Shown here one piece after another: positions 19,589 to 52,249 of a stretch of DNA of 64,000 bases. Made by a program: the position numbers and the translations under genes. Origin of the DNA: Jiangella sp. DSM 45060. Lineage in GTDB: Bacteria; Actinomycetota; Actinomycetes; Jiangellales; Jiangellaceae. A model generated the notes under the pieces. The model was not told the DNA's origin. It ran no database searches and worked only from the letters and a program-made list of their open reading frames with translations. The DNA lies in NCBI RefSeq assembly GCF_900105175.1, contig NZ_LT629771.1:1240001-1304000 (forward strand), given 5' to 3'. How positions within the stretch are numbered: the first letter of the stretch is position 1; each line of letters starts with the position of its first letter.

Positions 19589-19637
19589 CGAGGCGATCTC
19601 CAGGAGCCATTAATCGACAAGGAGTCTTAGTAGGCAC

Positions 19638-19667
19638 TTGTAGAAAGATGCCGTGAATCAATAACGT
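19638..19667 (+). promoter_or_regulatory. Candidate promoter for kdgD, possibly leaderless
   Basis: TTGTAG (19638-19643) and TAACGT (19662-19667) are 18 bases apart in an 86-bp gap that is visibly AT-richer than its surroundings. Transcription would start about seven bases after the -10, essentially at the GTG 19675, and no ribosome site is seen before that GTG. Confidence 0.4.
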
Positions 19668-19674
19668 CGGTGCC

Positions 19675-20613: not shown

Positions 20614-20633
20614 CCAGAAGGAAGGACGCGACG

Positions 20634-34159: not shown

Positions 34160-36217
34160 GTGCCGGCCCAAAGCGCTTTGAGAACGGACCAGATCGCCGA
34201 GGACCGGGAGGGCGCGCCGTTCACCGGCTGGACCCGTGCGCACTGGGAGGCGACGGCCGACGCGTTGCTGCTCGCGCCGCGCCGCTACGCCACGGCGTCG
34301 AACGCCCTGGTGCACCTGCCCGGGCCGGCCAGCAGGTCGGGGCGCTGGAGCGACGGCCTGGAAGGCTTCGCGCGCACGTTCCTGCTGGCCGGCTTCCGGC
34401 TCGCCGGCGCCGGCGGCGACGACCCGCACGACCTCGCCGGCTGGTACGCGCGCGGCATCGCGGCCGGCGTCGATCCCGAGTCGCGCGAGCGCTGGCCGCG
34501 GCTCACCGAACGGCGGCAGGCGCACGTCGAGGCGGCGTCCGTCGCGATCGGCCTGCACGAGACCAGGCCGTGGATCTGGTCGCGGCTCTCCGACCGTACC
34601 CGCGCACAGGTCGTCGACTGGCTCGGCGACATCGTGGGGCAGGGCGGCTACGGCAACAACTGGGTGTGGTTCCAGAACATCGTCGAGGCGTTCCTGCGCA
34701 CCGTGGGCGGCCCGTGGGACCCCGCCGACATCGAGCGCAACCTCGCGGCGCACGAGAGCTGGTACGTCGCCGACGGCTGGTACACCGATGGTGGCGTCCG
34801 CAACTTCGACTACTACGTCGGCTGGGCGATGCACTTCTACCCGGTCTGGTACTCGCGCATCCTGGCCACGGACGCCGATGCCGGGTTCGCCGCGACGGTC
34901 CGCGACCGGCTGCGCCGGTACCTGCAGGATGCTCAATACCTGGTCGCCGCCGACGGCGCACCGGTGCTCCAAGGCCGCTCGCTGACCTATCGGTTCGCGA
35001 TGCTGGCGCCGTTCTGGGCGGGCGCGGTCGCCGACGCACAGGCGCCGGGCGCCGCGGTCGACGCCGCGACGGTGCCGCCCGGCGTGACCCGGCGGCTGGC
35101 CAACGGCGTGCTCCGGTACTTCCTCGGCCACGGCGCCCGCGACGAGCGCGGCCTGCTGCCGATCGGCTGGCACGGCGCGTTCCCGCGCATCCGGCAGTAC
35201 TACTCCGGCCCGGGGTCGCCCTACTGGGCGAGCAAGGGCTTCGCCGGACTCGTGCTGGCGCCGTCGCACCCGGTGTGGACGGCGGAGGAGCGGCCGCTGC
35301 CGGTCGAGTCCGGCGACGTGCACCGCGTCGTCGAGCCGCCCAGCTGGATCGTCGCCGCGACCCGGTCCGACGGCATCGTGCGCGTGCTCAACCACGGCAC
35401 CGACCACGCGGCGGTCCCGGCGGCCGCGGCCGACCTGCCGTTCTACGCCCGGCACGGCTACGCGACGCACGCGGCGCCCGAACTCTCGCACGGCGACGCG
35501 CAGGCGCCGTTCGACTCCCACGTCGCGCTTCTCGACGCCGAGGGCCGGCCGAGCCATCGGACGCCGCTGCGGCGCGTCGACGCCGGTCCGGATGCCCTGG
35601 CGTCGAGCGGCCGGGCCCACTGGCTCGAGCTGTCCGCTGCCGCCGGCACCACCCAGGACACCGAGAGCATGCGGGTCGGCCCGTGGCTCACCACCGCGAC
35701 GCTGGTCCGCGGCGGCGTCGAGGTGCGGCTGGCTCGGGTCGACCCCGTCCCGCCGGACTTCGGCCGTCCGGGCACCGCCGCCGCTGACGACCCGGACGCC
35801 CATCGGCTGGTCGATCCCGGCCCGTGGCGGCTGCGCTTCGGCGGCTGGGCCGTGGCGAGCGACGCGGCCGCGCCCGCGCACCGACTCGGTGACCGGCACG
35901 CCGCAGCGACGACCGAGAGCGGTCTGACCAGCGTGGTCGTCGGCTGCGACGGTGTCGACGACGCCGGCGTGCGTGCGTCCGCTGGGTCGAACCCACTCGG
36001 GCGGTGGTCGGCGACGCCCTGGGCGCGGACGAGCGCGCCGATCCGCACCGGAACGGTCTACGCCGCCGTCGTCGTGCTGGCCGGAGTGCCGTCGGCGGCC
36101 GACGACGCCGACCGCACCGCGGTGCGCATCGCCGACGCCGACGCGAGCGTCACCTGGCCCGACGGCACCTCCGTCAGCGTGCGGCTCGCCGCACCGGACG
36201 CGGCCGGCTCGCGGTGA
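34160..36217 (+). CDS. DUF2264 family protein
   Basis: The 685-aa protein starts at GTG 34160, six bases after AAGGGAG. The N-terminal two thirds match DUF2264, an alpha/alpha-toroid family linked to pectin/rhamnogalacturonan-type glycan breakdown: WSDGLEGFARTFLLAGF, GGYGNNWVWFQNIV, VADGWYTDGG, NFDYYVGWAMHFYP and later GSPYWASKGF. The C-terminal third looks like beta-sandwich. There is no signal peptide, so it probably acts inside the cell on imported oligosaccharides. It overlaps the alginate-lyase-family gene by four bases. Unusually, a perfect LacI-type palindrome covers codons 4-7, so the operator is partly coding. The reaction is not established for the family. Confidence 0.8.
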   Translation: MPAQSALRTDQIAEDREGAPFTGWTRAHWEATADALLLAPRRYATASNALVHLPGPASRSGRWSDGLEGFARTFLLAGFRLAGAGGDDPHDLAGWYARGIAAGVDPESRERWPRLTERRQAHVEAASVAIGLHETRPWIWSRLSDRTRAQVVDWLGDIVGQGGYGNNWVWFQNIVEAFLRTVGGPWDPADIERNLAAHESWYVADGWYTDGGVRNFDYYVGWAMHFYPVWYSRILATDADAGFAATVRDRLRRYLQDAQYLVAADGAPVLQGRSLTYRFAMLAPFWAGAVADAQAPGAAVDAATVPPGVTRRLANGVLRYFLGHGARDERGLLPIGWHGAFPRIRQYYSGPGSPYWASKGFAGLVLAPSHPVWTAEERPLPVESGDVHRVVEPPSWIVAATRSDGIVRVLNHGTDHAAVPAAAADLPFYARHGYATHAAPELSHGDAQAPFDSHVALLDAEGRPSHRTPLRRVDAGPDALASSGRAHWLELSAAAGTTQDTESMRVGPWLTTATLVRGGVEVRLARVDPVPPDFGRPGTAAADDPDAHRLVDPGPWRLRFGGWAVASDAAAPAHRLGDRHAAATTESGLTSVVVGCDGVDDAGVRASAGSNPLGRWSATPWARTSAPIRTGTVYAAVVVLAGVPSAADDADRTAVRIADADASVTWPDGTSVSVRLAAPDAAGSR
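34169..34180 (+). promoter_or_regulatory. Perfect 12-bp palindrome, candidate LacI operator
   Basis: CAAAGCGCTTTG is self-complementary over all 12 bases and has the central CG typical of LacI-family operators. It lies nine bases after the GTG start of the DUF2264 gene, within its coding sequence, and faces the divergent LacI gene. It differs at the two central-left bases from the CAAAAGGCTTTG sites of the 47-57 kb regulon, so a different repressor is expected to read it. Confidence 0.55.
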
Positions 36218-37368
36218 CGGCGCCGGCGGCGTTCCTCATCCCCGATCGAGCCTGGGACGAGGTGACGCGCAGCCTGGCGGCCGACGCGCGGGCGCGGGCC
36301 GTCCTCGCCGCCGAGTGCGCCGAGCTGCGCCGGGGCGGATTGCGGAGCGTGACGGACAAGCCCGTGCCGGCGCCGAGCGGCTCGCCACACGACTACCTGA
36401 GCATCGCACCGTACTGGTGGCCCGATCCGGCGCGGCCCGGCGGCCTCCCGTGGGTGCGGCGCGACGGTGAGGTCAACCCCGCCTACCACGACCACGACAA
36501 CGCCCGCCTCGACGCCATGTGCCTCGCGGTGTCCTCGGCGGTCGTGGCCCATCGCGTGACCGGCGACGCCGGCCACGCCCGCTTCGCCGGGCGGTATCTC
36601 CGGCACTGGTTCCTCGATCCGGCCACGCGGATGAACCCGAACCTCGTCCACGCCCAGGCCGTTCCGGGCGTCACCGAGGGCCGCGGCATCGGCATCATCG
36701 ACACCGCCGGGTTGATCTACCTGCTCGACGCGGTCTGCCACCTGGAGCCCGGACGGCACTGGTCCGCCGGTGACCTCGACGGCCTGCGGCAGTGGTTCTC
36801 CGACTACCTCGACTGGCTGCTCATCAGCGAGCACGGCCGCGTCGAAGGCGCCGAGGCGAACAACCACGGCACCTGGTACGACGCCCAGGTGGTGGCGTAC
36901 GCGAGCTTCACCGGCCGGACGGACGTGGCGGCGCGGCAGCTCGAGCGGTGCTCGATGGACCGGCTGACAACGCAGATCGCGGCGGACGGCAGCATGCCGC
37001 ACGAACTGCGGCGCACGCTGTCGCTGACGTACTGCGCGTTCAACCTGCTCGGTCTGCTGTGCCTCGCGTCGCTGTCCCAGCACGCCGGCATGGACCTGTG
37101 GCGGCACGGCGACGCGCTGCCGCGTGCGGTCGGCCACCTGGCGCCGTTCCTCACCGGGGAGCGCGCCTGGTCGCATCCGCAGATCGTCCCGTTCGACCCG
37201 TACGTCGTCGCGCTCGTGCTGACGCTGACGCCGGGGCGCGGCTCCGACGCGGCCGCGCACGCCGAATGGCCGCACCACCGGCTGATCTTCTCGCACGCCA
37301 GGGTCGCCAGTCGCCGGTCCGGCCGGGGCGCCGCCCCGGCCGGACCGCCCGCTCAGGGGACGTCCTGA
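36214..37368 (+). CDS. Alginate lyase family protein (PL5-like alpha/alpha barrel)
   Basis: The 384-aa protein starts at GTG 36214 in a GTGA overlap. It has the alginate_lyase domain: YLSIAPYWWPDP near the N-terminus, HAQAVPGVTEGRGIGIIDT in the middle and NNHGTWYD, which carries the Asn/His of the catalytic core in this family. HELRRTLSLTYCAFNL follows. No export signal is present, so it would act on imported uronate oligomers, as with exo-type lyases. Its last 16 bases overlap the 3' end of the convergent glycosidase gene. Alginate is only one of the substrates possible for the fold; glucuronan or other oligouronides fit the neighbourhood too. Confidence 0.8.
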   Translation: MTAPAAFLIPDRAWDEVTRSLAADARARAVLAAECAELRRGGLRSVTDKPVPAPSGSPHDYLSIAPYWWPDPARPGGLPWVRRDGEVNPAYHDHDNARLDAMCLAVSSAVVAHRVTGDAGHARFAGRYLRHWFLDPATRMNPNLVHAQAVPGVTEGRGIGIIDTAGLIYLLDAVCHLEPGRHWSAGDLDGLRQWFSDYLDWLLISEHGRVEGAEANNHGTWYDAQVVAYASFTGRTDVAARQLERCSMDRLTTQIAADGSMPHELRRTLSLTYCAFNLLGLLCLASLSQHAGMDLWRHGDALPRAVGHLAPFLTGERAWSHPQIVPFDPYVVALVLTLTPGRGSDAAAHAEWPHHRLIFSHARVASRRSGRGAAPAGPPAQGTS

Positions 37369-38918
37369 ACGGTGGCCACGACCTCGTCGAAACGGACACC
37401 GCCCGTCTGGCCCGAGACCAGGCCGGACTTGTCCAGCACCAGCGCGACCCTGGTCGCGGGACCGTGCCACACGCCATCGTCGGCGCCGCCGAAGTGCAGG
37501 TAGCCGGCGCCGCTGTCGAAGTCGGACACCACGATCTCCTGCCAGGCGCCGGACGGCGTGAAGGCCAGGTTCTGCTGGTGGGTCTGGCCGGTGCTGTCGG
37601 TGACCCGCAGCCCGACACGCTGCACCGTCGTCGCCCGCACCCAGAACGTCAGCTTGCGCAGCGCGAGGCCGGAGACGGGGCGGGAGATCTGGACGTAGTT
37701 GCCGCCGCCGGTGAAGTCGCCGTGCAGCACGCCGGCCAGGGCGCCGCCCATGACGTAGGTGTCGTTGCGCTGGAACGTCCCGGTGGCGCCGGGGAACTCC
37801 GGGCCGAGGCCGAGCGCCCAGCCCTCGCTCGGCCCCTCGAAACCGCCGATCACCACGTCGGCGCCGATGATCCGGCGCGGCAGCTTCTTGTACGACCAGT
37901 CGGTGTGGTCCATGGTGACCGGGTCGAAGTTCGGGAACGAGACCAGCCCGTAGTTGGCCTCGGTGTAGGAGTCCGTCCGCACCGGCTGGGTGAGCAGTTC
38001 GTAGAGGACGAGCGCCTCGACGTGCGGATGCGCCTCGCAGATGGCGCGGATCTGGTGGTACCAGTTGACCTGGCGCTGCTGGTTCTCCGCGTCGCTGCGC
38101 GTCTGCGACGGCCGCTCGTTGGTCTCGGCCACCCAGATCGGCAGGCCGTACTCGGACCAGAGCCAGTCGAAGACGTTGGTGATTCCGCTGACCGGGAGGC
38201 CGGCGATGCCGCGCTGCATCTCGGCGTACCAGTGCCAGTCGATGAAGTCGAGGTCCACGTTGTCCAGGACGTAGCCCTGCCACCAGATCGGGAAGTAGCC
38301 GGACACCGACACCGACGTCTTCGCCGTGGGCCGCACCGACTTCAGGCCGGCGTTCGCTCCCTTGATCCAGTTCATCGCCCGTTCGCATTTCGGCAGGTCG
38401 AAATCGCCGGCGACCTCGCCGTCCGGGCTGAGCAGCAGTTTCTTGAACAGCTCCCACTCGTTGCCCAGGTTGTAGTGGGTGAACATGTGGCCGTAATCGG
38501 TGGCGAACCCGGCCATCAGCGCGTAGCCGCGGTCGTAGTTCTCCTGTGGCGAGATGTCCGGCGAGTAGTTGTCGTACACCATCGGCAGGCAGTCGATGCC
38601 GGCGTCGGCGAGCAGGCCCTGCATGGTGAGGAACTTGGTGTGGTTGGTCGACCGGCCGGCGGCGTCGGTCTTGATGTCGGTGCGGTAGACGTCCATGCCC
38701 ATCGCGGTGAGCATGGCCACCTGGGTGGCGTAGGGGACGCCGGGCTCGGCGTCGGCGTCGTACGCCTTGGTGTTGTAGGGATGGCCGTTGGCGCCGAAGC
38801 GCAGCGGCGTCGCCGCGGACGACTGGCCGGCCGTGGCCAGAACGGCCGGGAGGGGGAGGGCCGCGCCGGCGGTGGCCAGGCCGGCGGCCTTGAGCAGTTC
38901 TCGACGGGTCGGTCGCAT
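37353..38918 (-). CDS. Tat-exported glycoside hydrolase with C-terminal LGPEFPGA module (B')
   Basis: The 521-aa protein starts at ATG 38918 with GGAGGCA upstream. The N-terminus carries a twin-arginine signal (TRRELLKAAGLA). A clan-A type TIM barrel follows (about residues 40-345) with candidate acid/base Glu154 in LGNEWE and nucleophile Glu265 in VAETNERP. From residue about 352 it has a module of about 165 residues beginning DVVIGGFEGPSEGW and including LGPEFPGATGTF, GDFTGGGNYVQ and DSTGQTHQQ. The same module occurs in the three neighbouring proteins. It is 521 versus 524 aa for its paralogue at 42290-43864. A perfect 16-bp hairpin separates it from the upstream gene, so its expression may be lower. 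The GH family cannot be named. Confidence 0.8.
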   Translation of the reverse strand: MRPTRRELLKAAGLATAGAALPLPAVLATAGQSSAATPLRFGANGHPYNTKAYDADAEPGVPYATQVAMLTAMGMDVYRTDIKTDAAGRSTNHTKFLTMQGLLADAGIDCLPMVYDNYSPDISPQENYDRGYALMAGFATDYGHMFTHYNLGNEWELFKKLLLSPDGEVAGDFDLPKCERAMNWIKGANAGLKSVRPTAKTSVSVSGYFPIWWQGYVLDNVDLDFIDWHWYAEMQRGIAGLPVSGITNVFDWLWSEYGLPIWVAETNERPSQTRSDAENQQRQVNWYHQIRAICEAHPHVEALVLYELLTQPVRTDSYTEANYGLVSFPNFDPVTMDHTDWSYKKLPRRIIGADVVIGGFEGPSEGWALGLGPEFPGATGTFQRNDTYVMGGALAGVLHGDFTGGGNYVQISRPVSGLALRKLTFWVRATTVQRVGLRVTDSTGQTHQQNLAFTPSGAWQEIVVSDFDSGAGYLHFGGADDGVWHGPATRVALVLDKSGLVSGQTGGVRFDEVVATVQDVP

Positions 38919-38958
38919 CGTTGCCTCCGGTGGTCGAGTGGAGCGGGGGTGGGGTCGG

Positions 38959-38997
38959 GGCCCGGCCGGAGCCGCCGGTGACGGCTCCGGCCGGGCC
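38959..38997 (-). terminator. Perfect 16-bp hairpin between the A' and B' genes
   Basis: GGCCCGGCCGGAGCCG (38959-38974) and its exact reverse complement (38982-38997) enclose a 7-base loop. The hairpin lies 5 bases after the stop of the 1086-aa gene and 40 bases before the start of the next gene on the same strand. It is by far the strongest stem-loop I noticed in a non-coding gap. No U-tract follows, as is common for actinomycete terminators, so it may end or attenuate transcription or protect the 3' end of the upstream message. Confidence 0.6.
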
Positions 38998-39002
38998 GGC
39001 GG

Positions 39003-42000
39003 TCACGGGTCCAGGCGGAAGGGGAGATAGCGCGCGGGGTCCTTGGTGGTCGCGATCCCGTCGCCCCAGGCGATCCAGCCGTCGCGGCCGGTACCGTCGT
39101 TCTCGTTGACGATGAGCGAGAAGCTGATCAGCCGGTCCGCGGGCCGGAACGGGGTCAGCTCCGACCAGGGGACGGCCAGCTCGTAGACGGTCTCGTCGGT
39201 GTCGTCGTGCCGGACGATCGCGACGTCCACCCCGTCGACCACGCCGACCGGACGGCCACCGGCGGCGAGCCAGCGGTAGACCTCCGGGCCGTCCGCGGTC
39301 AACGTGAGTCCGAGCTCGTCCCAGGCCCGGGTCTCGCCTGGCAGACCGGCGGCGAAGCCGAACTGGAAGCCGTCGCCGGCCCAGACGCCGTCACCGGAGG
39401 AGGTCTGGCTGTGCACGTCGTCGTGGATCCGCGCCGACAGGTAGACGTTCTCCTCGTCCCACGTGGTCCAGACCTGGCCGGAGAGGTCGTCCGGGCCGAT
39501 GTGGCCGGAGAGCCGGTTGACGCCGTCGGCGAGCAGGTCGAACCCCGGCACGTCGCCGAGGTCGTCCAGGACGCCGTCGACGGTGATCGGCCGGTGTGCG
39601 ATGGGCGCGATCGTGTCGTCGGCGACGATCGACACCGAGCCCGCGCGCACGACGTCGGCGACGCCGGGAGCGGTCAGCCGCAGCTCGTACGCGTGTCTCG
39701 CCTCGGCGAGCCCGTCGAGCGGGAGGTCGACGTCGACGCCGGCCCCGCCGGCCAGCGTCGCCGGCACCTCGGCGGTGCCCGAGGTGTCGCCGATGGTCCA
39801 CTCCAGCGCAGTGAGCTCGACGTCACGGCTGGCGGCGTTCGTGACGGTCGCCGTCAGCACGTGCGCGCCGGTGTCGTCGAGCCGGTGCGCGGCCGTGACC
39901 GTCAGCGGCTCGATGACGGTGACGCCGGTGGCGAGCCGGGCCGTCGTGCCGCGCCGCTCCTCGAACGTGCCGACCAGTTCTCGCGGCCCGAGCTCGTCGG
40001 TGGCCGGGAGCGTGACCGGGACGGTCGCCGTCCGGCCGGGCGCCACGTGGACGGTCACGGACCGGCCGCCGAGGTGGAAGGTGCCGACGATCGGCGCGCG
40101 GGGCTCGCCGGTGTTGTCGATCGCCAGCTCCAGCTCGACCGGGTCGCCGGCGGCCACGGTGGCGCCGGCGACCGGCCGCAGCGCGAGCGTGTCGCTCACC
40201 TCGATCGAGGTCACGTCGCCGGTGACGTAGACGGGGTTGTCGCCGAGCGTCAGGTGGATGCGGCCGGCGTTGGCGTCGTACCGCTCGGACGCGCCCGTCA
40301 GGTCGGTGACGGTGAGCCGGTCCTCCGACGCGATCGCCACCGTCGTCGGTTCCTCGGCCCAGAGCACGCGCACCGGGGTTCCGGCGTTGTCGAACAGGTA
40401 GCTGCGCACACCGTCGGCGACGTCGTCGCGGCTGATGAAGTCGGCGGTGCCGAGCGCGCGGGTCATCGTCGCGTAGCTCACATACGCGGGCTTGGGCACC
40501 CAGCGGCCGCGGGGGTTGTCGTGGTGCCGGATGATCCCGAACCGGTCCTCGTTGGACGCGTCGTTCAGGCCCTTCTCCGACATGTTGTACATGATGTGGC
40601 GGTCGACGCCCGAAGCCAGCGAGAGGACGTTCGCCCGCACGAAGTTGGCGGCCTGGGTCGCTTCGCTGACGCCGGTGGCTCCGGTGTTGGTGGGCCAGCC
40701 CTGCTCGGTGATCCAGATCGGAATCGGCTCGCCGCCGTTGTACTCACGGACCAGAGCGTCGAGCCGGGCGAGCACGTCCTCCACGCCCTCGGGGTCGCCC
40801 GGGTAGCGGTAGGGGTGCACCGAGAGCACGTCCATGTACTCCAGGCCGCCGAGCTGGAACAGCTGCTCCAGCCACTGCATCGGCACCGAGGACGTGACGC
40901 CGCCGACGACGGTGACGTCCGGCCGCTCGGCCTTGACGGTCTCGTAGGTCGCCTTCAGCAGCGGGAAGTAGTAGTCGGCGCGGCTGTCGGCCGGACCGTC
41001 GCCGCGGTCGCCGAAGCCGATGTTGAACTCGTTGTACACCTCGGCCCACGGCAGGTCGTAGTGCTCGACGGTGGCGGCCACGTAGTTCGCGTAGGCCTGG
41101 CGGCCGGCGTCGGTGTAGGGGGTGGCGTTGCCGTCGTGGTGGGCGTTGGTGTAGCCGAACATCGCCAGCCACGTGGAGCCGGCGGCGTCCAGGCTGTCGA
41201 CCATGCCGTCGTACCCGTCGAAGACGTACTCGCCCGGACGCGGCTCGATGGTCCCCCAGCCGGCGTCCTGGCGCACCGTCGCGGCCCCCGCCATCGCCGC
41301 GATCTCCGGGAGCAGGTAGCCGGGGTCCTTGGTCGAGTCCCAGGACAGGTGCTCGGCCAGGCCGAACGGGGACTCCGTCGCGGACAGCCGCTCAGTTGCG
41401 GCCAGCAGCGCCACGTCGGTCTCCCGGGTGGCGATCACCTCGCCGTCGAGGGTCGCGGTGGCCGCGAAGACGTAATGACCCGGGGTGTCGATGGGCAGGG
41501 TGAGCTGCGTCTGGGTGTCGATGGGCGTGTCACCCGCCGCGACCTGCTCACCCCAGAAGTCGGTGACCGTCCAGTTCACGGTGTCGCCCCGCGACACCAG
41601 GCCGAGCGTCACCTCGTCGGGCTGCTCGACGATGTTGCCCGGCGTGGTCTGCTCGATGACCAGGGCCGGCGGCTGGGCCGTCACGGTGACGGCGTCGAGC
41701 CGCACGCTGCCGGTGAGGCTCGCCGCCGGCACGCTGGCTTTGTCGACGATGAACGCGATACTCGTCGCCGGGCCGTGCCAGACGCCGTCGTTCGCGCCGC
41801 CGAAGTGCAGGTACCCGCTGCCGCCGGCGAAGTCCGTGACCGTGATCTGCTGCCAGCCACCGGGCGTGAGGGCGAGGCGCTGCTGGTGGGTCTGGCCGGT
41901 GGAGTCGACCAGGCGCAGCCCGAGCCGGGCGACGTCGTCAGTCCTGGCCTGGAAGCTCAGCCCGACCGCGTCGAGCGAGATGCTCTTGCGCACCTGGACG

Positions 42001-42263
42001 TAGTTGCCGCCGCCGGTGAAGTCGCCGTGCAGGACGCCGGACGACGACCCGCTGACGGCGTCGGTGGCGTCGATCGTGAACGAGCCCTGGGCGCCGGGGA
42101 ACTCCGGTCCCAGGTCGAGGCCCCAGCCGTCTCCGGCGGCCTCGAAGTCGCCGATCGTGGTGGTGAGGTCCAGGGCCTGTGTCGCCGCCGGCGCCGCGAC
42201 GAGACCGGCGGCCGCCGCGGCGGCGGCCGCGATGGCCGCGGCGATCCTTCGGGGGATGTGCAT
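39003..42263 (-). CDS. Large secreted glycoside hydrolase with N-terminal module, GH39-like barrel and CBM9-like end (A')
   Basis: The 1086-aa protein starts at ATG 42263 (GGAGAG upstream) with a Sec signal to about residue 31. Order of parts: the shared LGPEFPGA module (about 33-200), an Ig-like segment, a TIM barrel (about 310-640) with acid/base Glu412 in VYNEFNIGF and nucleophile Glu520 in WITEQGWP, two beta-sandwich stretches, and a C-terminal CBM9/DOMON-like domain (VWTTWDEENVYLSARIHDD). The reading frame stays open far upstream of the ATG, but that part is out of frame with the neighbouring gene and not coding. The closest architecture is clan-A enzymes such as GH39; the family assignment is tentative. 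It is paralogous to 43903-47175. Confidence 0.85.
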   Translation of the reverse strand: MHIPRRIAAAIAAAAAAAAGLVAAPAATQALDLTTTIGDFEAAGDGWGLDLGPEFPGAQGSFTIDATDAVSGSSSGVLHGDFTGGGNYVQVRKSISLDAVGLSFQARTDDVARLGLRLVDSTGQTHQQRLALTPGGWQQITVTDFAGGSGYLHFGGANDGVWHGPATSIAFIVDKASVPAASLTGSVRLDAVTVTAQPPALVIEQTTPGNIVEQPDEVTLGLVSRGDTVNWTVTDFWGEQVAAGDTPIDTQTQLTLPIDTPGHYVFAATATLDGEVIATRETDVALLAATERLSATESPFGLAEHLSWDSTKDPGYLLPEIAAMAGAATVRQDAGWGTIEPRPGEYVFDGYDGMVDSLDAAGSTWLAMFGYTNAHHDGNATPYTDAGRQAYANYVAATVEHYDLPWAEVYNEFNIGFGDRGDGPADSRADYYFPLLKATYETVKAERPDVTVVGGVTSSVPMQWLEQLFQLGGLEYMDVLSVHPYRYPGDPEGVEDVLARLDALVREYNGGEPIPIWITEQGWPTNTGATGVSEATQAANFVRANVLSLASGVDRHIMYNMSEKGLNDASNEDRFGIIRHHDNPRGRWVPKPAYVSYATMTRALGTADFISRDDVADGVRSYLFDNAGTPVRVLWAEEPTTVAIASEDRLTVTDLTGASERYDANAGRIHLTLGDNPVYVTGDVTSIEVSDTLALRPVAGATVAAGDPVELELAIDNTGEPRAPIVGTFHLGGRSVTVHVAPGRTATVPVTLPATDELGPRELVGTFEERRGTTARLATGVTVIEPLTVTAAHRLDDTGAHVLTATVTNAASRDVELTALEWTIGDTSGTAEVPATLAGGAGVDVDLPLDGLAEARHAYELRLTAPGVADVVRAGSVSIVADDTIAPIAHRPITVDGVLDDLGDVPGFDLLADGVNRLSGHIGPDDLSGQVWTTWDEENVYLSARIHDDVHSQTSSGDGVWAGDGFQFGFAAGLPGETRAWDELGLTLTADGPEVYRWLAAGGRPVGVVDGVDVAIVRHDDTDETVYELAVPWSELTPFRPADRLISFSLIVNENDGTGRDGWIAWGDGIATTKDPARYLPFRLDP

Positions 42264-42289
42264 GCGCTCTCCTCGAGGAGTGGTGGTGA

Positions 42290-43864
42290 TCAGGGCACGT
42301 CCTGGACGGTGGCGACGACCTCGTCGAACCGGACGGCGCCGGTGACGCGGCCGGCGGTGAGCCCGCCCTCGTCCAGGACGAGGCCGACCCTGGTCGCCGG
42401 CCCGTGCCAGACGCCGTCGTCGGCCCCGCCGAAGTGGACGTAGCCGGCGCCGCCCGCGAAGTCGGACACGGCGACCTCCTGCCAGACGCCGTCGGGCGCG
42501 ATGGCGATCGTCTGCTGGTGGGTCTGGCCGGTGCTGTCGGTCATCCGCAGCCCGATGCGCTGCACCGTGCTGCTCAGCACCCAGAACCTCAGCGTGCGGA
42601 CGGGCAGGCTCGCGACGGTCCGCGACACCTGGACGTACGCCCCGCCGGCGGTGAAGTCGCCGGAGAGCAGGCCGGCGAGCTCGCCGCCCATGTGGTGGGC
42701 GTCGTTGCGCTGGAACGAGCCCGTGGCGCCGGGGAACTCCGGGCCGTTGGCGAACGTCCAGCCCTCGCTCGGCCCTTCGAAGCCGCCGATGAGGACGTCG
42801 GCGCCCATGAGCCGGCGGGGCAGCTTCCGGTACGACCAGCCGGTGTAGTCGGGGTTCGCGCGGTCGAAGCCCGGAAAGGCCACCATGCCGTAGTTCGCCT
42901 CGACGTACTCGGCCGGGACGGTCGTGTCGCGCTGCGGCTGGGTCAGCAGCTCGTACCAGATCACGGCCTCGACCCGCGGATGCTCGAGGCACAGCTGGTG
43001 GATCTTCTGGTGCCAGTTGACCTGGAGTTGCTGGTTCTCCAGGTCGCCGCGGTTGCGGTTCGGCCGATCGTTCGTCTCCGACACCCAGATCGGCAGCCCG
43101 TACCGGGTCCAGAGGTCGTCGAAGATGTTGTCGACGCCGATCTCCGACTTGTTCCGCTCCATGTCGGCGTACCAGTGCCAGTCGACGAAGTCGAGGCCGA
43201 CGTTCTCCAACACGTAGCCCTGCCACCAGACCGGATACCAGCCGGCGGCCGCTATGGACGTCTTCGCGGCCGGCTTCACCGACTTGAGGCCGTCGTTCGC
43301 GCCCCTGATCCAGTGCATGGACCGCTCGGCCATGGTCAGGTCGTAGTGACCGGACGACGCGCCCGTGCCGGTCTTGAACCCGTCGTTCAGTTCCCACTCG
43401 TTGCCGAGGTTGACGTGGGTGAAGTACGGGCCGTAGTGGGTGGCGAAGCCGGCCGCCTTCGCGAAGCCGCGGTCGTAGTTCTGCTGGTTGGTCAGCGCCG
43501 GGTCGCAGTTGTCGCCGAGCATCGGCATACAGGCGATCCCGGCGTCGCCGAGCAGCCCCATCATCCGCAGCACCGAGTTGTGCACCGGTGCCCGGCCGGA
43601 CGCGTCGGTGCCGATGTCCGTGCGGTAGATGCCCATGCCCAGCGCGCTGAGCATGGCCACCTGCGTCTCGTAGGGGACGCCGTTCGCGGGGGTGTACGCG
43701 TCGTTGTTGTAGGGGTGGCCGTTCACGCCGAGCAGCAGCGGCGAGGCCGCGGGAGCGAAGCCCGCCGCCTCCTCCGCCCCCGCGGCCTGGCCCTGCCAGG
43801 GCAGGGCCAGGCCGGCGATCCCGAGACCGGTCGATCGCAGGAACTGCCGTCGAGTCGATCGCAT
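42290..43864 (-). CDS. Tat-exported glycoside hydrolase with C-terminal LGPEFPGA-type module (B)
   Basis: The 524-aa protein starts at ATG 43864 with GAAGGAGA upstream and carries a twin-arginine signal (TRRQFLRSTGLG). The TIM-barrel domain has candidate acid/base Glu156 in LGNEWEL and nucleophile Glu263 in VSETNDRP. The C-terminal module resembles that of the copy at 37353-38918 but reads NGPEFPGA where the others have LGPEFPGA, and SGDFTAGGAYVQ where they have HGDFTGGGNYVQ. It has thus drifted at conserved positions. The gene starts 38 bases after the 1090-aa gene. The two B proteins are similar over their whole length but clearly diverged, so the duplication is not recent. Confidence 0.8.
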   Translation of the reverse strand: MRSTRRQFLRSTGLGIAGLALPWQGQAAGAEEAAGFAPAASPLLLGVNGHPYNNDAYTPANGVPYETQVAMLSALGMGIYRTDIGTDASGRAPVHNSVLRMMGLLGDAGIACMPMLGDNCDPALTNQQNYDRGFAKAAGFATHYGPYFTHVNLGNEWELNDGFKTGTGASSGHYDLTMAERSMHWIRGANDGLKSVKPAAKTSIAAAGWYPVWWQGYVLENVGLDFVDWHWYADMERNKSEIGVDNIFDDLWTRYGLPIWVSETNDRPNRNRGDLENQQLQVNWHQKIHQLCLEHPRVEAVIWYELLTQPQRDTTVPAEYVEANYGMVAFPGFDRANPDYTGWSYRKLPRRLMGADVLIGGFEGPSEGWTFANGPEFPGATGSFQRNDAHHMGGELAGLLSGDFTAGGAYVQVSRTVASLPVRTLRFWVLSSTVQRIGLRMTDSTGQTHQQTIAIAPDGVWQEVAVSDFAGGAGYVHFGGADDGVWHGPATRVGLVLDEGGLTAGRVTGAVRFDEVVATVQDVP

Positions 43865-43902
43865 CGTCGTCTCCTTCGACGTCGCGGGACCGGGGGGTTC
43901 GA

Positions 43903-46900
43903 TCAGGGCAGCGGATCCAGGCGGAACGGGCTGTAGCGGGCCGGGTCCTTGGCCGTGGCAATGCCGTCGCCGTAGCGGATCCAGCCGCGCCGCTCCTGTC
44001 CGTCGTTCTCGTTGAGGATGATCGAGAAGCTGAGCAGCCGGTGGTCGGGCTCGAACGGAGTGAGCTCGCTCCACGGGATGGCCAGCTCGTAGACGGTCTC
44101 CGCGGCGGCGTCGTCGCGGGTGATGGCGAGGTCGGCGTCCTCGATGAGCCCGGTGGGCCGGCCCTGCGCGGACAGCCAGCGGTACAGCTCCGGGCCGTTC
44201 TCGGTGAGCGACATGCCCAGCTCGTCCCAGGCCCGCGTCTCGCCCGGCAGCCCCGCGGCGAAGCCGAACTGGAACCCGTCGCCGAACCAGACCGCGGTGC
44301 CGGTCTCGGACTGGAAGTGGACGTCGTCGTCGATCCGCGCGCTCAGGTACACGTTCTCGTCGTCCCAGGTGGTCCAGAGCTGACCACCGAGGTCGTCGGG
44401 GCCGCCGTGGTCGGAGATGGCCACGACGCCGTCGGCGAGGAAGTCGACCGACGGGACGCCGGCGAGGTCGTCGAGGACGCCGTCGACCGTGATCGACCGC
44501 TGGGGGAACGAGCCGATGGCGTCGGTCGCGACGACCGCGACCGTGCCCGTGCTGACGACGTCGTCGACGTCCGGACCGGTCAGCCGCAGTTCCCGCGTGT
44601 GCCGGCCGGCCGGGAACCCCGCGAGCGGGATGTCGACCTCGTAGGTGGCGCCGCCCGCGATGGCGGCGGGGACCTGCGCGGTGCCGGTCTGGCCGCCGAT
44701 CGTCCAGGCGAGGCCGTCCAGGGCCACCTCGTCGACCGAGGCGTTGGCCACGCCGACGCGCAGGACGTCGGCGCCGGCGGCGTCCAGGCGGTGCGTGGCC
44801 GTCATCGTGAGCGGTTCGACCACCTGCACCTGGGTGGTGAGGCGGGCCGCGGGAGCGCCGGACAGTCGCAGGGTGCCGACGAGGTCGCGCGGGCCGAGCG
44901 TGGTGGTGCCCGGAACCGTCACCGGGATGGTCGCGACCTGTCCCGGCCGCACCGACACCGGGACCGACGTGCCGGCGATGTCGAGGCTGCCGCTGATCGG
45001 CGCGCGAGGCGTGACGGAGTTGTCGATGGTCAGCTCGAGCGCGATGTCGTCGCCGGCCGCGACCGCGTCGGCCACCGGGGCGAGCGTGATCTTGTCGTCG
45101 GGCGCGATGCCCTCGACCTCACCGGTGAGGTAGATCGGCGCCGAGCCGAGCGTGAGGTGGATGCGGTCGGCTCGGCTCCGGTAGGTGTCGGAGGCGCCCA
45201 TGAGGTCGGTCACCGAGACGGTCGTGTCCGGCGCGGTCTGCACCGAGACGGTCGTCGGCTCGTCGGACCACAGGACCCGGACGGGGGTTCCGTCGCGATC
45301 GAAGACGTGGCTGTGGATGCCGTCGGCCACGGTCTCCTCGTGGTCGTACGCGGCGGCGTCCAGCGCTCGGGTCATGGCCGCGTAGGCGGCGTAGCCGGGC
45401 TTGGGCGTCCACTTGCCGCGGGGGTCGTTGGTGTTGCGGATCAGGCCGTACCGGTGCTCGACGTCGGTCTCGTTCAGGCCCTTGTTCATCATGTTGTACC
45501 AGGTGTAGCGCTCGACGCCGTTGGCGAACGCGACCACGTGGGTCCGCACCAGGTAGGCGGCGGAGGTGGCCTCGCTGACGCCGGTGGCGCCCGTGTTGGT
45601 GGGCCAGCTCTGCTCGGTGATCCAGATCGGGATCGACTCGCCGTCGTTGTACTGACGGACCAGCGCGTCGAGCCGCTCGAGGTCGGCCTCCATGCCCTCA
45701 GGAGCGCTGGGGAACCGGTACGGGTGGACGGACAGCACGTCCATGTACTCCAGGCCGCCGAGCTGGAACAGCTGCTCGAGCCACTGGAACGGGATGGACG
45801 ACGTGACGCCGCCGACCACCGTCACATCGGGGTGCTCGGCCTTGACCGTCTCGTAAGTGGTCTTCAGCAGCGGGAAGTAGTAGTCGGCGCGGCTGTCGGC
45901 GGGGCCGTCGCCGCGGTCGCCGAAGGCGATGTTGAACTCGTTGTAGATCTCGACCGACTCGAGGTCGTACTTCTCGATCGCGTCGACGGTGTAGGCGGCG
46001 TAGCCGGCGCGGGCCTCGTCGGTGTGGGGCGTGGCGTTGTTGTCGTAGAACTTGTTCGTGTAGCCGAACATCGGCGCCCAGCTCATGCCGGCGCCGTCGA
46101 GGGCCTCGACCATGGGGTCGTAGCGGGTGTACGTGTACTCGCCCGGCTGCTTCTCGATCTCGCCCCAGCCGGCGTCTTCGCGGACCCGCTGGGTGCCGAG
46201 CTTGTCCGCGATGCCGACCAGCTCGTAGTTCGGGTCGCCCCAGTCCGGGCGCGTGAGGTGTTCGGCGATCATGAACCGCTCGTCGGACGGTGAGGGGTCG
46301 AACTCCTCGACGACGGCGAAGTCGGTCTCGGAGCTGCCGATCACGGCGCCGTCCTGGACCGCGGTGAAGGCGATCGCGTAGTAGCCGGGCGTGTCGACCG
46401 GAACCGTCAGGCCGGCGGTGACGTCGACGGCGGTGTCGCCGGACGCCACCTGGTCGCCCCACGCGTCCGTGACGGTCCAGCTCACGGTGTCGGCGCGCGA
46501 GGTGAGGCCGAACTCGACCGGCTGGCTGTCCTCGAAGATGTTCCCCGGCGCCGTCTGCTCGATCTCGAGCACCGGCGGGGGAGCGGTCACCGTGACGGCG
46601 TCGAACCGCACGTCGGCCGTCTTGTCCGCCGGCAGCACGAAGCCGCGGTCGATGATCAGGCCGATGGACCGGGCCGGACCGTGCCAGATGCCGTCGTTCG
46701 CGCCGCCGTAGTGGATGTTGGACTCGCCACCGGCGAAGTCGGTGATGGCGACCTGCTGCCATGCGCCGCCGGGCGCGATCGGGACGCGCTGCTGGTGGAC
46801 CTGGCCGGTCGAGTCGGTCAGCCGCAGCCCGATCCTGCTGACGTCGGCCGACCGGACCTGGAACGACAGCTCGGTGAGGTCGAGCCCGAGCGACCGTCCG

Positions 46901-47175
46901 AGCAGGACGTAGTTGCCGCCGCCGCTGAAAGCGGCCGTGACCAACCCGGACCGCTCGCCGGTGGCCGCGTCCGTCGCGTCGCGGGTGAAGGTGCCCTGCG
47001 CCCCGGGGAACTCGGGCCCCAGGTTGAGGTTCCAGACCTCGGCGGTGCTTTCGAAGTCGCCGATCACTTCCTCGATCTGCGCGGCCTGCGCCGCGGGTGG
47101 GCCGGCGGCGATCGCGGCGGCGACGGCCACCGCGAACGAACCGATGGCGGCCAGGATCCTTCGTGGAGCGCGCAT
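43903..47175 (-). CDS. Large secreted glycoside hydrolase with N-terminal module, GH39-like barrel and CBM9-like end (A)
   Basis: The 1090-aa protein starts at ATG 47175 after GAGGAGA. A Sec signal ends near AAQA at residue 31. The shared module follows (LGPEFPGAQGTF, then DSTGQVHQQ), then an Ig-like segment, a barrel with acid/base Glu413 (IYNEFNIAF) and nucleophile Glu521 (WITEQSWP), beta-sandwich segments and a C-terminal CBM9-like domain (LWTTWDDENVYLSARIDDD). It is the first gene of the four-gene hydrolase operon. Two copies of the 20-bp operator flank its candidate promoter. The polysaccharide is unknown; the operon belongs to the same proposed regulon as a glucuronoyl esterase and importer 4. 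Confidence 0.85.
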   Translation of the reverse strand: MRAPRRILAAIGSFAVAVAAAIAAGPPAAQAAQIEEVIGDFESTAEVWNLNLGPEFPGAQGTFTRDATDAATGERSGLVTAAFSGGGNYVLLGRSLGLDLTELSFQVRSADVSRIGLRLTDSTGQVHQQRVPIAPGGAWQQVAITDFAGGESNIHYGGANDGIWHGPARSIGLIIDRGFVLPADKTADVRFDAVTVTAPPPVLEIEQTAPGNIFEDSQPVEFGLTSRADTVSWTVTDAWGDQVASGDTAVDVTAGLTVPVDTPGYYAIAFTAVQDGAVIGSSETDFAVVEEFDPSPSDERFMIAEHLTRPDWGDPNYELVGIADKLGTQRVREDAGWGEIEKQPGEYTYTRYDPMVEALDGAGMSWAPMFGYTNKFYDNNATPHTDEARAGYAAYTVDAIEKYDLESVEIYNEFNIAFGDRGDGPADSRADYYFPLLKTTYETVKAEHPDVTVVGGVTSSIPFQWLEQLFQLGGLEYMDVLSVHPYRFPSAPEGMEADLERLDALVRQYNDGESIPIWITEQSWPTNTGATGVSEATSAAYLVRTHVVAFANGVERYTWYNMMNKGLNETDVEHRYGLIRNTNDPRGKWTPKPGYAAYAAMTRALDAAAYDHEETVADGIHSHVFDRDGTPVRVLWSDEPTTVSVQTAPDTTVSVTDLMGASDTYRSRADRIHLTLGSAPIYLTGEVEGIAPDDKITLAPVADAVAAGDDIALELTIDNSVTPRAPISGSLDIAGTSVPVSVRPGQVATIPVTVPGTTTLGPRDLVGTLRLSGAPAARLTTQVQVVEPLTMTATHRLDAAGADVLRVGVANASVDEVALDGLAWTIGGQTGTAQVPAAIAGGATYEVDIPLAGFPAGRHTRELRLTGPDVDDVVSTGTVAVVATDAIGSFPQRSITVDGVLDDLAGVPSVDFLADGVVAISDHGGPDDLGGQLWTTWDDENVYLSARIDDDVHFQSETGTAVWFGDGFQFGFAAGLPGETRAWDELGMSLTENGPELYRWLSAQGRPTGLIEDADLAITRDDAAAETVYELAIPWSELTPFEPDHRLLSFSIILNENDGQERRGWIRYGDGIATAKDPARYSPFRLDPLP

Positions 47176-47222
47176 GCTGTCTCCTCGACGATGAGTCGAC
47201 GGCGGCCGGCGCTGAGTGGCCG

Positions 47223-47242
47223 GACGCAAAAGGCTTTGTGGA
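47223..47242 (-). promoter_or_regulatory. 20-bp LacI-type operator, site 1
   Basis: GACGCAAAAGGCTTTGTGGA on the plus strand matches 17 of 20 bases of the consensus GACGCAAAAGGCTTTGCGTC derived from five sites. It covers the expected transcription start of the hydrolase operon and touches the -10 box at 47242-47247. Its sequence is identical to site 2 at 50457-50476 over all 20 bases. Confidence 0.7.
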
Positions 47243-47271
47243 ACGTATCGGAGTGAACCGGTCATCCGCAA
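47242..47271 (-). promoter_or_regulatory. Candidate promoter of the four-gene hydrolase operon
   Basis: Read on the minus strand, TTGCGG (47271-47266) and TACGTT (47247-47242) are 18 bases apart. The promoter is framed by operator site 4 just upstream of the -35 and site 1 just downstream of the -10, an arrangement fit for tight repression. Confidence 0.5.
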
Positions 47272-47277
47272 GACATC

Positions 47278-47297
47278 GGTGCGAAACGCTTTGCGTC
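47278..47297 (-). promoter_or_regulatory. 20-bp LacI-type operator, site 4
   Basis: GGTGCGAAACGCTTTGCGTC matches 16 of 20 consensus bases and carries the classical central CG of LacI-family sites. It lies 55 bp from site 1, with the candidate promoter between them. Confidence 0.6.
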
Positions 47298-47335
47298 ACC
47301 CGAAGGCGCGTGGAGTGCCGCTCAGCGGATTGACG

Positions 47336-48415
47336 TCAGCGCCGTGCGGGCGCGGTCACGTGCGGTCCGGTGAGCCAGCCGTCGGCGTGGTCGAGCCAGG
47401 TCGCCCAGTCGGCGGGGGTGAGATCGTGGCCGCCGGGGCGGAGGCGGAAGCCGAGCCGGCCGCCGATCAGCCGGTCCTCGGGCGGCGACGCGCCGACGCC
47501 GAGGCCGTCGAGACCGAGGTCGTCGGCGCCGAGGAGCTCGTAGACCGGCGACGCGGCGCGCAGGACCCCCAGCTGGCCGGCCGGGTCGGCCCACTGGTCT
47601 CCGGCGGCGCAGGTGAACAGCACCGGGCGCGGCGCGCACAGCGCGACCAGGCAGTGCTGGTCGACCGGCAGGCGATCGGGGTCGGCGGCATGGGTGGCGA
47701 ACCGGTCGGCGAACCAGTGCGGGAACGCGGCCGTGATGTGCGCGACCGTCTCGGCCCGCGGGTTGCTGGTGCGGCTCGGTGCGCTGCCGCCGCAGCCGGC
47801 CTGGTTGACCAGCGCGAGGCCGATCCGGTCGTCGAACGCGGCCGCCAGCAGCGCCGCCTTGCCCAGCCGGGAGTGACCGCCGGCGGCGACCCGGCCGGCA
47901 TCGGCCTCCGGCAGACCGACCGCGACGTCCACGAGCCGGCTCAAGCCCCAGGCCCAGGCGGCGATCGCGGGCACCCCGGCCGGCGCCGTGCCCGCGTCGT
48001 GGGGCGCGCCGGGATCGTCGGGCCGGAACCGCTCGTAGTCCGCGGTCACGACCGCGTAGCCGCGCCCGGCGACGAGCCCGAGCGGCCACCGGGGATGCCC
48101 GGCGACGCCGCCGGGACCGGCGGCGTTCAGGCTCACCACCACCGGCGCCGGCCCAGCCGACCGGGCCGGGAGCGCGGCCTGGACCGTCACCGGCGCACGG
48201 CCCGGCCAGGTCAGCGCCAGCTCGCGGAGTATCACCTCGCCGGACCGGCGTTCCCGCACCAGCTCGGCCGGCGGCGCCGGGCCGGCCGGCGGGACCGGCC
48301 CGTACACCTCGCGCCGGAAGATCGCCGCCAGCTCCGGGCGGCGCCGCGACCACCACTCGGCGGCGGAGTCGACGCGGGTGCCGTCGGCGCACCGGAGCGG
48401 ATCGGGCAGCCTCAC
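47336..48415 (-). CDS. Glucuronoyl esterase family protein (CE15)
   Basis: The 359-aa protein starts at GTG 48415 in a GTGA overlap with the DUF6807 gene. The CE15 nucleophile motif is present as GGHSRLGK (Ser182), where most members have GCSRxGK. NQAGCGGSAPSR and the C-terminal GGHDLTPADW supply the other conserved segments, including the catalytic His. CE15 enzymes hydrolyse esters of 4-O-methyl-glucuronic acid, as in lignin-xylan crosslinks. There is no signal peptide, so this copy may act on imported oligosaccharides. It is the last gene of an operon starting at 50429. The Cys-to-His change in the motif is uncommon and worth noting. Confidence 0.8.
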   Translation of the reverse strand: MRLPDPLRCADGTRVDSAAEWWSRRRPELAAIFRREVYGPVPPAGPAPPAELVRERRSGEVILRELALTWPGRAPVTVQAALPARSAGPAPVVVSLNAAGPGGVAGHPRWPLGLVAGRGYAVVTADYERFRPDDPGAPHDAGTAPAGVPAIAAWAWGLSRLVDVAVGLPEADAGRVAAGGHSRLGKAALLAAAFDDRIGLALVNQAGCGGSAPSRTSNPRAETVAHITAAFPHWFADRFATHAADPDRLPVDQHCLVALCAPRPVLFTCAAGDQWADPAGQLGVLRAASPVYELLGADDLGLDGLGVGASPPEDRLIGGRLGFRLRPGGHDLTPADWATWLDHADGWLTGPHVTAPARR

Positions 48416-49326
48416 CAGTCGATCGTGGCGAGAGTGTCGGCGATCGAGGCCGCAGGGTGCTCGCCGGTGGCGACGACGACCCGGTACCGCCGGTGCAGGG
48501 CCTCACCGGCGGGGATCACCAGCGGTTCGTGGAAGGCCCAGGACGGATTGATGCCGGCGAAGTCGCCGGTGCGGGTGAACCAGTGCGCGCTGTCGCCCTT
48601 GTTCTCCGGCGCGGTGGTGAAGACCAGCGTCGACGAGCGGTCGACGTCGTCGTGGCGGCCGATGTACGCGACCCACGGGACGTCGGCGACGCTGCGCCCG
48701 CGCAGCTCGTCCTCGGGGACGACGCCGTCGGCGGTGACCAGGGCGCCGTCGGTGAACGACCGCGGACCGCGCCACCACAGGCCGCTGTAGCCCGAGCCCG
48801 TCATGCCGCGGACGTTCGGGCTCTCCAGGGTCAGCGCCGCGTCGCCGGCGCCGCTGACGCGGGTCGTGACGTCGAGCGCGTAGGTGCCGGCGTCGAGGTC
48901 GACGGCGTGCAGGCGCAGCGTGCGCCGCTCGGTTGCAAGGGGAGCATCCGTGGCATCGACCCACACCAGGTCGTGGTCGACGGTGACGTCGCCCGGCGCC
49001 GGGTGGATCGCGGGCGGCCCGCTCGGGCGCATCGCGCCGAGGTTGTCCAGCACCTGGTAGCCCTCGCCCCGGACGTACGTGTGCCCGCCCCAGATGTTCG
49101 TCCCGGACACGTCGGTGGCGGTGAGCTGCAAGCCCTTGTGCCACCGGTGGTCGTGCGGCCGGAAGATCGTCACCACGTCGCCGGCGAGGGTACGCAGCGG
49201 GTGGATGTAGGGCTTGGGCGCCTCCCAGCGCTGGGGGAACGGTTCGTAGACGTAGCGGGCCAGCTCGACGTCGCCGGCCCGCACCGACACGTCGTGGCCA
49301 TGGGTGTGAGTGACGACCAGGGTCAT
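48412..49326 (-). CDS. DUF6807 (PmoA-like) family protein
   Basis: The 304-aa protein starts at ATG 49326 in an ATGA overlap with the Gfo/Idh gene. It belongs to the family annotated as methane oxygenase PmoA or DUF6807: YVYEPFPQRWEAPKPYIHPLRTLAGD near the N-terminus, FRPHDHRWHKGLQ with three His residues, and GSGYSGLWWRGPRSF later. The methane-oxygenase label is misleading: the protein is soluble and appears mostly in polysaccharide-degrading loci next to Gfo/Idh genes, as here. The fold is probably beta-sandwich. No reaction is proven; an auxiliary role to the neighbouring dehydrogenase or esterase is inferred from the tight coupling. Confidence 0.8.
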   Translation of the reverse strand: MTLVVTHTHGHDVSVRAGDVELARYVYEPFPQRWEAPKPYIHPLRTLAGDVVTIFRPHDHRWHKGLQLTATDVSGTNIWGGHTYVRGEGYQVLDNLGAMRPSGPPAIHPAPGDVTVDHDLVWVDATDAPLATERRTLRLHAVDLDAGTYALDVTTRVSGAGDAALTLESPNVRGMTGSGYSGLWWRGPRSFTDGALVTADGVVPEDELRGRSVADVPWVAYIGRHDDVDRSSTLVFTTAPENKGDSAHWFTRTGDFAGINPSWAFHEPLVIPAGEALHRRYRVVVATGEHPAASIADTLATIDW

Positions 49327-50456: not shown

Positions 50457-50476
50457 GACGCAAAAGGCTTTGTGGA
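50457..50476 (-). promoter_or_regulatory. 20-bp LacI-type operator, site 2
   Basis: GACGCAAAAGGCTTTGTGGA is identical to site 1. On the minus strand it follows TACGCT, just as site 1 follows TACGTT, so both the operator and its placement after the -10 are conserved between two promoters. Confidence 0.7.
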
Positions 50477-50667: not shown

Positions 50668-50687
50668 AACACAAAAGGCTTTGCAAC
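50668..50687 (+). promoter_or_regulatory. 20-bp LacI-type operator, site 3
   Basis: AACACAAAAGGCTTTGCAAC matches 16 of 20 consensus bases, with the core CAAAAGGCTTTG identical to sites 1 and 2. It lies just downstream of the candidate promoter of the importer 4 operon. Confidence 0.65.
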
Positions 50688-52172: not shown

Positions 52173-52249
52173 CCCTCGATGTCAGGGATGTCCGGGGTCC
52201 CCGCAGCGGGCCCTGGACGTCCCTCGCGCACGACGGAAGGAGTGCGACC

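Follow-up and report, generated by a model that had tools for sequence, protein, structure and literature searches.

Why should a bacterium keep, side by side, two strongly diverged copies of the same pair of predicted exported hydrolases? The question is raised by four minus-strand genes, here called A, B, A′ and B′, in a 64,000-nucleotide stretch of contig NZ_LT629771.1 of the soil actinobacterium Jiangella sp. DSM 45060 (the window, on which all coordinates are given unless another contig or locus is named; Table 1). We propose, with moderate confidence, that the genes form one old tandem-duplicated two-gene unit in which A and A′ would be tuned to different sugar contexts of one glucuronate-rich polymer and B and B′ would cut a second bond. 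A sequence-only reading of the window had described an A-B-A′-B′ tandem layout, and gene sizes, order and full-length homology all bear it out: A and A′ are 61.3% identical over 1084 aligned residues and B and B′ 64.1% over 512, so that, judged from sequence, both pairs are homologous over their full length and in conserved order, far beyond chance. The candidate catalytic glutamates named in that reading also stand at exactly the given residues in all four proteins. Each gene has a plausible start and ribosome-binding site, the intergenic gaps are 38 (A-B), 26 (B-A′) and 84 bases (A′-B′), and the four genes are probably one co-transcribed array. Its last gene, B′, shares 16 bases with a PL38 gene that converges on it.

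Complete B genes were found in one other genome, that of Jiangella rhizosphaerae NEAU-YY265, which has the same A-B-A′-B′ order, with orthologues 82–91% identical. Its A, B and A′ lie on one contig and B′ on another, and these contigs share 58 bases at a hairpin that separates A′ from B′, which makes an uninterrupted array most likely in that species as well. Maximum-likelihood analysis of 24 GH39-type domains placed A with J. rhizosphaerae A (100/100) and A′ with its own orthologue (100/100), and brought the two orthologue pairs together (99/98); had the units arrived separately, A and A′ should have grouped with different outside homologues, the outcome that the sequence-only reading had named as fatal to duplication. 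Amino-acid site patterns agree, with 284 sites in A for the orthologue split versus 2 and 0 for the alternatives, and 88 versus 3 and 1 in B. The nearest outside relatives of A and A′ are only ~43–45% identical, and B and B′, with 64% identity between them, reach at most ~28% with any outsider, so the paralogues are each other's closest relatives, adjacent and in identical order. Because A and A′ are sisters, each with its own orthologue, and the same array occurs in J. rhizosphaerae, we place the tandem duplication before the species split. Silent divergence (dS) in J. rhizosphaerae, 2.7 for A/A′ and 2.4 for B/B′, is compatible, within saturation limits, with one event. The duplication is an ordinary evolutionary event; it is also real, old and maintained, and lies in a dedicated regulon. 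The single A-B pairs expected in related genomes were searched for, and none was found in the genomes scanned; the duplication's predicted intermediate is therefore unseen, though single A loci do exist.

The B genes carry an additional signal. From about residue 170 to the end (37353–38408 in B′, 42290–43354 in B), fixed differences are few relative to the N-terminal part, a pattern that suggests gene conversion between B and B′ in the 3′ two thirds after the duplication and before the species split. We also considered gene conversion after speciation for the nearly identical residues ~405–520 of A and A′ and rejected it: silent differences there are just modestly lower and site patterns are orthologous, and on these grounds we ascribe the near-identity to purifying selection.

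Strong purifying selection has acted on all four genes, so neither copy is decaying. Because silent sites are near saturation, pairwise codon models were used in place of the NG86 estimate of dN/dS; the rate ratio omega was 0.046–0.09 for A/A′, ~0.09 for B/B′ and 0.045–0.10 for orthologues, with dS for A/A′ unbounded in some segments of the codon model. The alignments and rate ratios proposed as a check in the sequence-only reading, together with the retained catalytic glutamates, thus uphold its statement that neither copy had decayed. In A, the 284 sites are fixed between A and A′ in both species, change inside each orthologue pair is modest, and the sequence record places the change mainly between duplication and speciation. 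These fixed differences are unevenly spread: they make up only 4–11% of positions at the acid/base region (residues 401–450), beta5–6 and the nucleophile region (512–535), versus 31% in beta1–3 and 39% in beta8 and beyond. Because so few lie near the glutamates and so many in beta1–3 and beta8, we infer that A and A′ share their chemistry at the sugar being cleaved but differ in the subsites beside it, so that they would cut the same bond type between different neighbouring sugars. Such a pattern would fit the earlier suggestion that the two units differ in which linkages or substituents of a single polymer they attack, and the candidate polymers narrow to those containing glucuronate.

The identity of A is suggested by its matches to solved structures. 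A matches GH39wh2 of Bacteroides cellulosilyticus (5JVK) over ~430 residues (E 1.8e-28, or 1.9e-59 with an A-type profile) and A′ does so at E 1.3e-18; the second closest solved relative of A, PslG (4ZN2), was matched by the A-type profile at E 2.8e-20, and several GH39 beta-xylosidases were also found with A-type sequences. The homology of A and A′ to GH39 extends across the (beta/alpha)8 barrel, the acid/base glutamate (in an N-E motif after beta4) and the nucleophile glutamate (after beta7) are present in both, and both residues are invariant in 12 A-type sequences, so that A is best described as a putative secreted GH39-type retaining glycoside hydrolase. From the N-terminus it comprises a signal peptide, a beta-sandwich binding-like domain (residues ~36–198; ~163 residues in A and A′), an immunoglobulin-like (Ig-like) domain, the GH39-type barrel (~296–605), a further beta-sandwich, a further Ig-like domain and a CBM9-like C-terminus; the glycoside hydrolase (GH) and CBM9-like parts were assigned from Pfam and PDB sequence matches and the remaining domains were read off the alignment. 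GH39wh2 and PslG, which are described as endo-acting with a large groove (PMC6933502), resemble A and A′ in the barrel but lack the extra N-terminal binding-like domain, the Ig-like domains and the CBM9-like C-terminus. Exchanging one residue is enough to switch the specificity of bifidobacterial GH39 enzymes (PMC10688797).

B and B′ consist of a twin-arginine-type leader, a catalytic domain and a C-terminal accessory domain. Signal peptides are accordingly predicted for the A and B proteins, and the earlier claim of export is supported to that extent, but the twin-arginine matches of B and B′ fall under the Pfam cut-off. No close solved relative of B was found in PDB searches. A profile of the B family nonetheless aligned with the A-family profile over 282 columns (E 9e-14), the two glutamates of one falling opposite those of the other, and for this reason we regard B as a probable remote clan GH-A relative of A; in the 13-member B alignment the two glutamates (E121/E228 in alignment numbering) are invariant, in keeping with the two catalytic glutamates of the clan at beta4 and beta7, and the N-E motif, the nucleophile glutamate and a W-H-x-Y motif are retained. 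None of the 60 PDB profile matches listed for B is a GH39 entry, the ranked ones being beta-glucosidase, endo-galactanase and Glyco_hydro_cc entries, so that B and B′ are not nearer to GH39 than to other clan GH-A families in that search. B exceeds the Pfam score cut-off for Glyco_hydro_cc (PF11790), which 11 of the 13 B-family members match at E ≤ 1, and solved proteins of that family (6uav, 6uaw, 6ubd) are among the weak PDB profile matches, but the alignments are partial and several clan families score alike. Because these matches are weak and spread across several clan families, we file B as clan GH-A-like, with no assignable CAZy family.

Relatives of B, 21–28% identical, are mostly from rhizobia and Burkholderiaceae; those on plasmid records of Sinorhizobium, Mesorhizobium, Shinella, Caballeronia, Mycetohabitans, Paraburkholderia and Roseateles are 23–28% identical. 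Those of Sinorhizobium, Mesorhizobium, Caballeronia and Mycetohabitans include uncharacterised proteins annotated as 'glycosyl hydrolase' or DUF4214 that have the catalytic domain, N-E motif and nucleophile glutamate of B, and some lie within polysaccharide biosynthesis loci: one Mesorhizobium relative sits among glycosyltransferase genes, and one in Caballeronia sp. M1242 is the immediate neighbour of an A-like gene within a cluster for exopolysaccharide biosynthesis. A literature search found nothing on DUF4214 glycosyl hydrolases in exopolysaccharide work. Profile searches of 396 genomes of the phylum and 394 of the class returned no full-length B match outside the genus, and an exact-motif scan of the genome collection with two short motifs, of low sensitivity to distant relatives, returned J. 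rhizosphaerae only.

A and B also share a domain that the sequence-only reading had not mentioned. Identity between the C-terminal domain of B and B′ and the N-terminal one of A and A′ is 47–58%, and in a tree of these domains A/A′ (93/92) stand apart from B/B′ (98/99), the two joined at 87/88; the domain was therefore already in both genes before the pair doubled. This homology, and the finding of the B catalytic domain in Jiangella only beside A, lend limited support to the earlier idea that A and B work as a couple, but A-type genes often occur without B and only one proteobacterial record has the two adjacent. An obligate couple across phyla was rejected as a candidate: among six plasmid records that contain a gene resembling the A-like gene of Caballeronia, a B-like gene is adjacent to it in one and ~10 kb distant in another, which is weak support. 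A bolder proposal, which we hold only tentatively, is that the B family and its proteobacterial relatives form an unrecognised clan GH-A family, that the shared domain is an unrecognised carbohydrate-binding family, and that A and B are, in Jiangella, an obligate couple on one glucuronate-containing polymer, duplicated to split the task.

Other genomes supply a comparative series. A third A-type gene lies in this genome 24 kb beyond the array (G000:C1:1311244-1315020), and this copy and one in another genome (G005) are near related transporter, epimerase-type and dehydratase genes. A further Jiangellaceae genome (G020; L056, L057) has an independent tandem of two A-type genes, with a third split between frames, near sulfatase-like genes and without B. 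At a locus in G017 (L089:3571-8088), the binding protein (57% identical), Gfo/Idh (74%) and DUF6807 (63%) genes and three operator copies accompany a single, more distant A-type gene and no B, so that the regulon is kept and the hydrolase differs. In a third Jiangella genome (G003, L085:9862-11414), only an operator near a B′ tail (86.8% identical) and a frameshifted PL38 gene are left, and we conclude from this relic that the array was lost there.

The array appears to be embedded in a regulon. The palindrome RCAAARSSYTTTGY has six matches in the window with ≤2 mismatches versus 0.69 expected, two of them upstream of A and none inside the array, and its strict 14-base form RCAAAASSYTTTGY occurs three times in the 7.49-Mb genome, before A, the Gfo/Idh gene and the transporter gene. 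A predicted operator common to hydrolase and transporter genes is what a LacI-controlled utilisation locus has, and this one is conserved in J. rhizosphaerae and at a single-A locus of another Jiangellaceae genus. The claim that only the first unit has a promoter and operators is therefore retained for the operators; for the promoter, a scan of 37000–47500 found no sigma-70 consensus, a result that is uninformative for an actinomycete. A LacI repressor, for which the LacI-family gene in the window is the candidate, probably switches on the array with the importer and uronate-processing genes. Within the array, the RNA hairpin between A′ and B′, absent from the earlier note, has a minimum of −49.3 kcal/mol (z −4.55, no shuffle equally good) and may attenuate B′ or protect the upstream message.

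Both pairs might instead do the same job and be kept to raise the amount of enzyme. The almost identical active-site segments of A and A′, the single operator-controlled run and the low omega of all four genes fit such a dosage effect, but ~40% protein divergence, with the 284 fixed sites in A and fewer later changes, would be unusual for copies kept for amount only, and the hairpin would unbalance the amounts. We consider dosage somewhat unlikely and prefer a division of labour between the copies.

The neighbouring genes bear on the substrate. Beside B′ lies a PF05426 lyase that matches PL38-type structures, followed by a DUF2264 protein homologous to glucuronate dehydratases; a CE15-like gene, for which the matching stretch of J. 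rhizosphaerae showed no counterpart, adjoins A, and a ManD-like dehydratase gene follows the transporter. Because of these four neighbours, the target polymer most likely contains glucuronate. PL38 enzymes act on glucuronan, alginate and hyaluronan (PMC13027841), and the founding former-GH154 protein, BT_3677, is a dehydratase whose substrate is a beta-D-glucuronate (PMC12269599). As in PL38/former GH154 uronate-polymer loci, a PL38-type lyase and a dehydratase homologue adjoin the array; a limited look at the literature found no published locus joining these families with a doubled GH39-type and clan GH-A-like pair.

Table 1 Features of the array and its surroundings, in window coordinates.
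Feature	Coordinates	Strand	Description or basis
A	43903..47175	minus	predicted secreted GH39-type glycoside hydrolase, 1090 aa, E413/E521
B	42290..43864	minus	putative twin-arginine-signal clan GH-A-like hydrolase, 524 aa, E156/E263; C-terminal domain homologous to N-terminal domain of A
A′	39003..42263	minus	A paralogue, 1086 aa, E412/E520, 61% identical
B′	37353..38918	minus	B paralogue, 521 aa, E154/E265, 64% identical
Shared accessory (carbohydrate-binding-like) domain in A	46582..47073	minus	identity and tree
Shared accessory domain in A′	41673..42164	minus	identity and tree
Shared accessory domain in B (C-terminal)	42302..42793	minus	identity and tree
Shared accessory domain in B′ (C-terminal)	37365..37856	minus	identity and tree
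LacI-type operator GCAAAAGGCTTTGT upstream of A	47226..47239	.	palindrome scan
Second, weaker operator GCGAAACGCTTTGC upstream of A	47281..47294	.	palindrome scan
Operator upstream of Gfo/Idh-DUF6807-CE15-like genes	50460..50473	.	same palindrome
Operator upstream of ABC (ATP-binding cassette) transporter genes	50671..50684	.	same palindrome
LacI-family regulator	32881..33990	minus	candidate reader of operator
RNA hairpin A′-B′	38959..38997	minus	18-bp stem, no U tract, stem identical in J. rhizosphaerae
PF05426 lyase, next to B′	36214..37368	plus	homologue of solved PL38-type alginate lyase family proteins 3nfv, 8bdq; E 2.5e-61
DUF2264 protein	34178..36217	plus	homologue of beta-D-glucuronic acid dehydratases 9o4u, 9nwf (former GH154); E 9e-22
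CE15-like (glucuronoyl esterase, PF22244) gene, directly upstream of A	47336..48415	minus	
DUF6807 protein	48412..49326	minus	
Gfo/Idh/MocA oxidoreductase	49323..50381	minus	
Sugar ABC transporter, binding protein and two permeases	50766..54165	plus	
NAD-dependent epimerase/dehydrogenase-like gene and ManD-like (mannonate/galactonate) dehydratase	54162..56371	plus	

The same neighbours could serve a different target, a neutral plant polymer such as arabinogalactan-protein side chains, with the uronate genes handling capping glucuronates only. Characterised bifidobacterial GH39 enzymes do act on gum arabic arabinogalactan protein (PMC10688797), and the activity of BT_3677 on a beta-D-glucuronate would suit such caps, but arabinogalactan-type GHs are missing from the annotated neighbours, the polymers that PL38 enzymes attack are glucuronan, alginate or hyaluronan, and the nearest solved relatives of A are described as endo-acting with a large groove; we think this target improbable. 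Less probable again is PslG-like biofilm turnover, in which the substrate would be exopolysaccharide made by the cell itself or by a neighbour and not a food polymer: the rank of PslG among the solved relatives of A and the exopolysaccharide-associated B-like genes of Mesorhizobium and Caballeronia sp. M1242 point that way, but the operator is common to the array, importer and uronate-processing genes and not to glycosyltransferases. Finally, separate horizontal arrival of two pairs later placed side by side is very improbable, since the patchiness of the B family (two Jiangella species and a relic, otherwise proteobacterial plasmid records only) is outweighed by the sisterhood of A and A′ to the exclusion of every other sampled GH39-type sequence and by the distance of both pairs from any outsider.

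The division of labour that we prefer would work as follows. When oligosaccharides of the polymer are present, a LacI-type repressor reading GCAAAAGGCTTTGT would switch on the array, the importer and the uronate-processing genes. Extracellularly, A and A′ would attack one kind of bond in glucuronate-containing repeats, A′ being tuned to a different sugar context through its beta1–3 and beta8 changes, and B and B′ would attack a second bond in that polymer. Uronic acids would be dealt with by the PL38 lyase, the CE15-like protein and the glucuronate-dehydratase homologue, and the fragments would be taken up and degraded.

Several observations weigh against this proposal. GH39 activities are very diverse; structure predictions, from four sequences each, were of too low confidence to use, with mean predicted local distance difference test scores (pLDDT) of 35 for B (AlphaFold2) and 40 for A′; and the genes scanned included no recognisable GH88 or GH105 unsaturated-uronyl hydrolase. 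The A′-B′ hairpin could uncouple B′ from the array. Moreover, B/B′ have fewer fixed differences than A/A′ in the 3′ two thirds, which one clean duplication would explain only with a conversion step added.

That sugar-cutting enzymes duplicate and diverge is known; what makes this locus of interest is the uncharacterised B family, the shared domain and the series from single A through tandem A-A and double A-B pair to relic. Because the comparison can draw on four enzymes, two orthologous arrays, a relic and a locus where a single enzyme accompanies the same operator, a split of function after duplication is directly testable here, and the locus is a candidate tool set for glucuronate-containing polymers. 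Since the B family is uncharacterised and has rhizobial and Burkholderiaceae relatives, some in polysaccharide loci, assigning one B activity would aid the annotation of many genes.

Two further features of the window were recorded. PL8 lyase, KdgD-like and GH141-like genes at 17210–23582 suggest a second acidic-polysaccharide locus. At 57499–59319 a 606-aa protein without Pfam or PDB match is encoded; its N-terminal sequence resembles that of a protein (L101:6036-7853) encoded close to an A-type gene in Streptomyces sp. NBC_01237.

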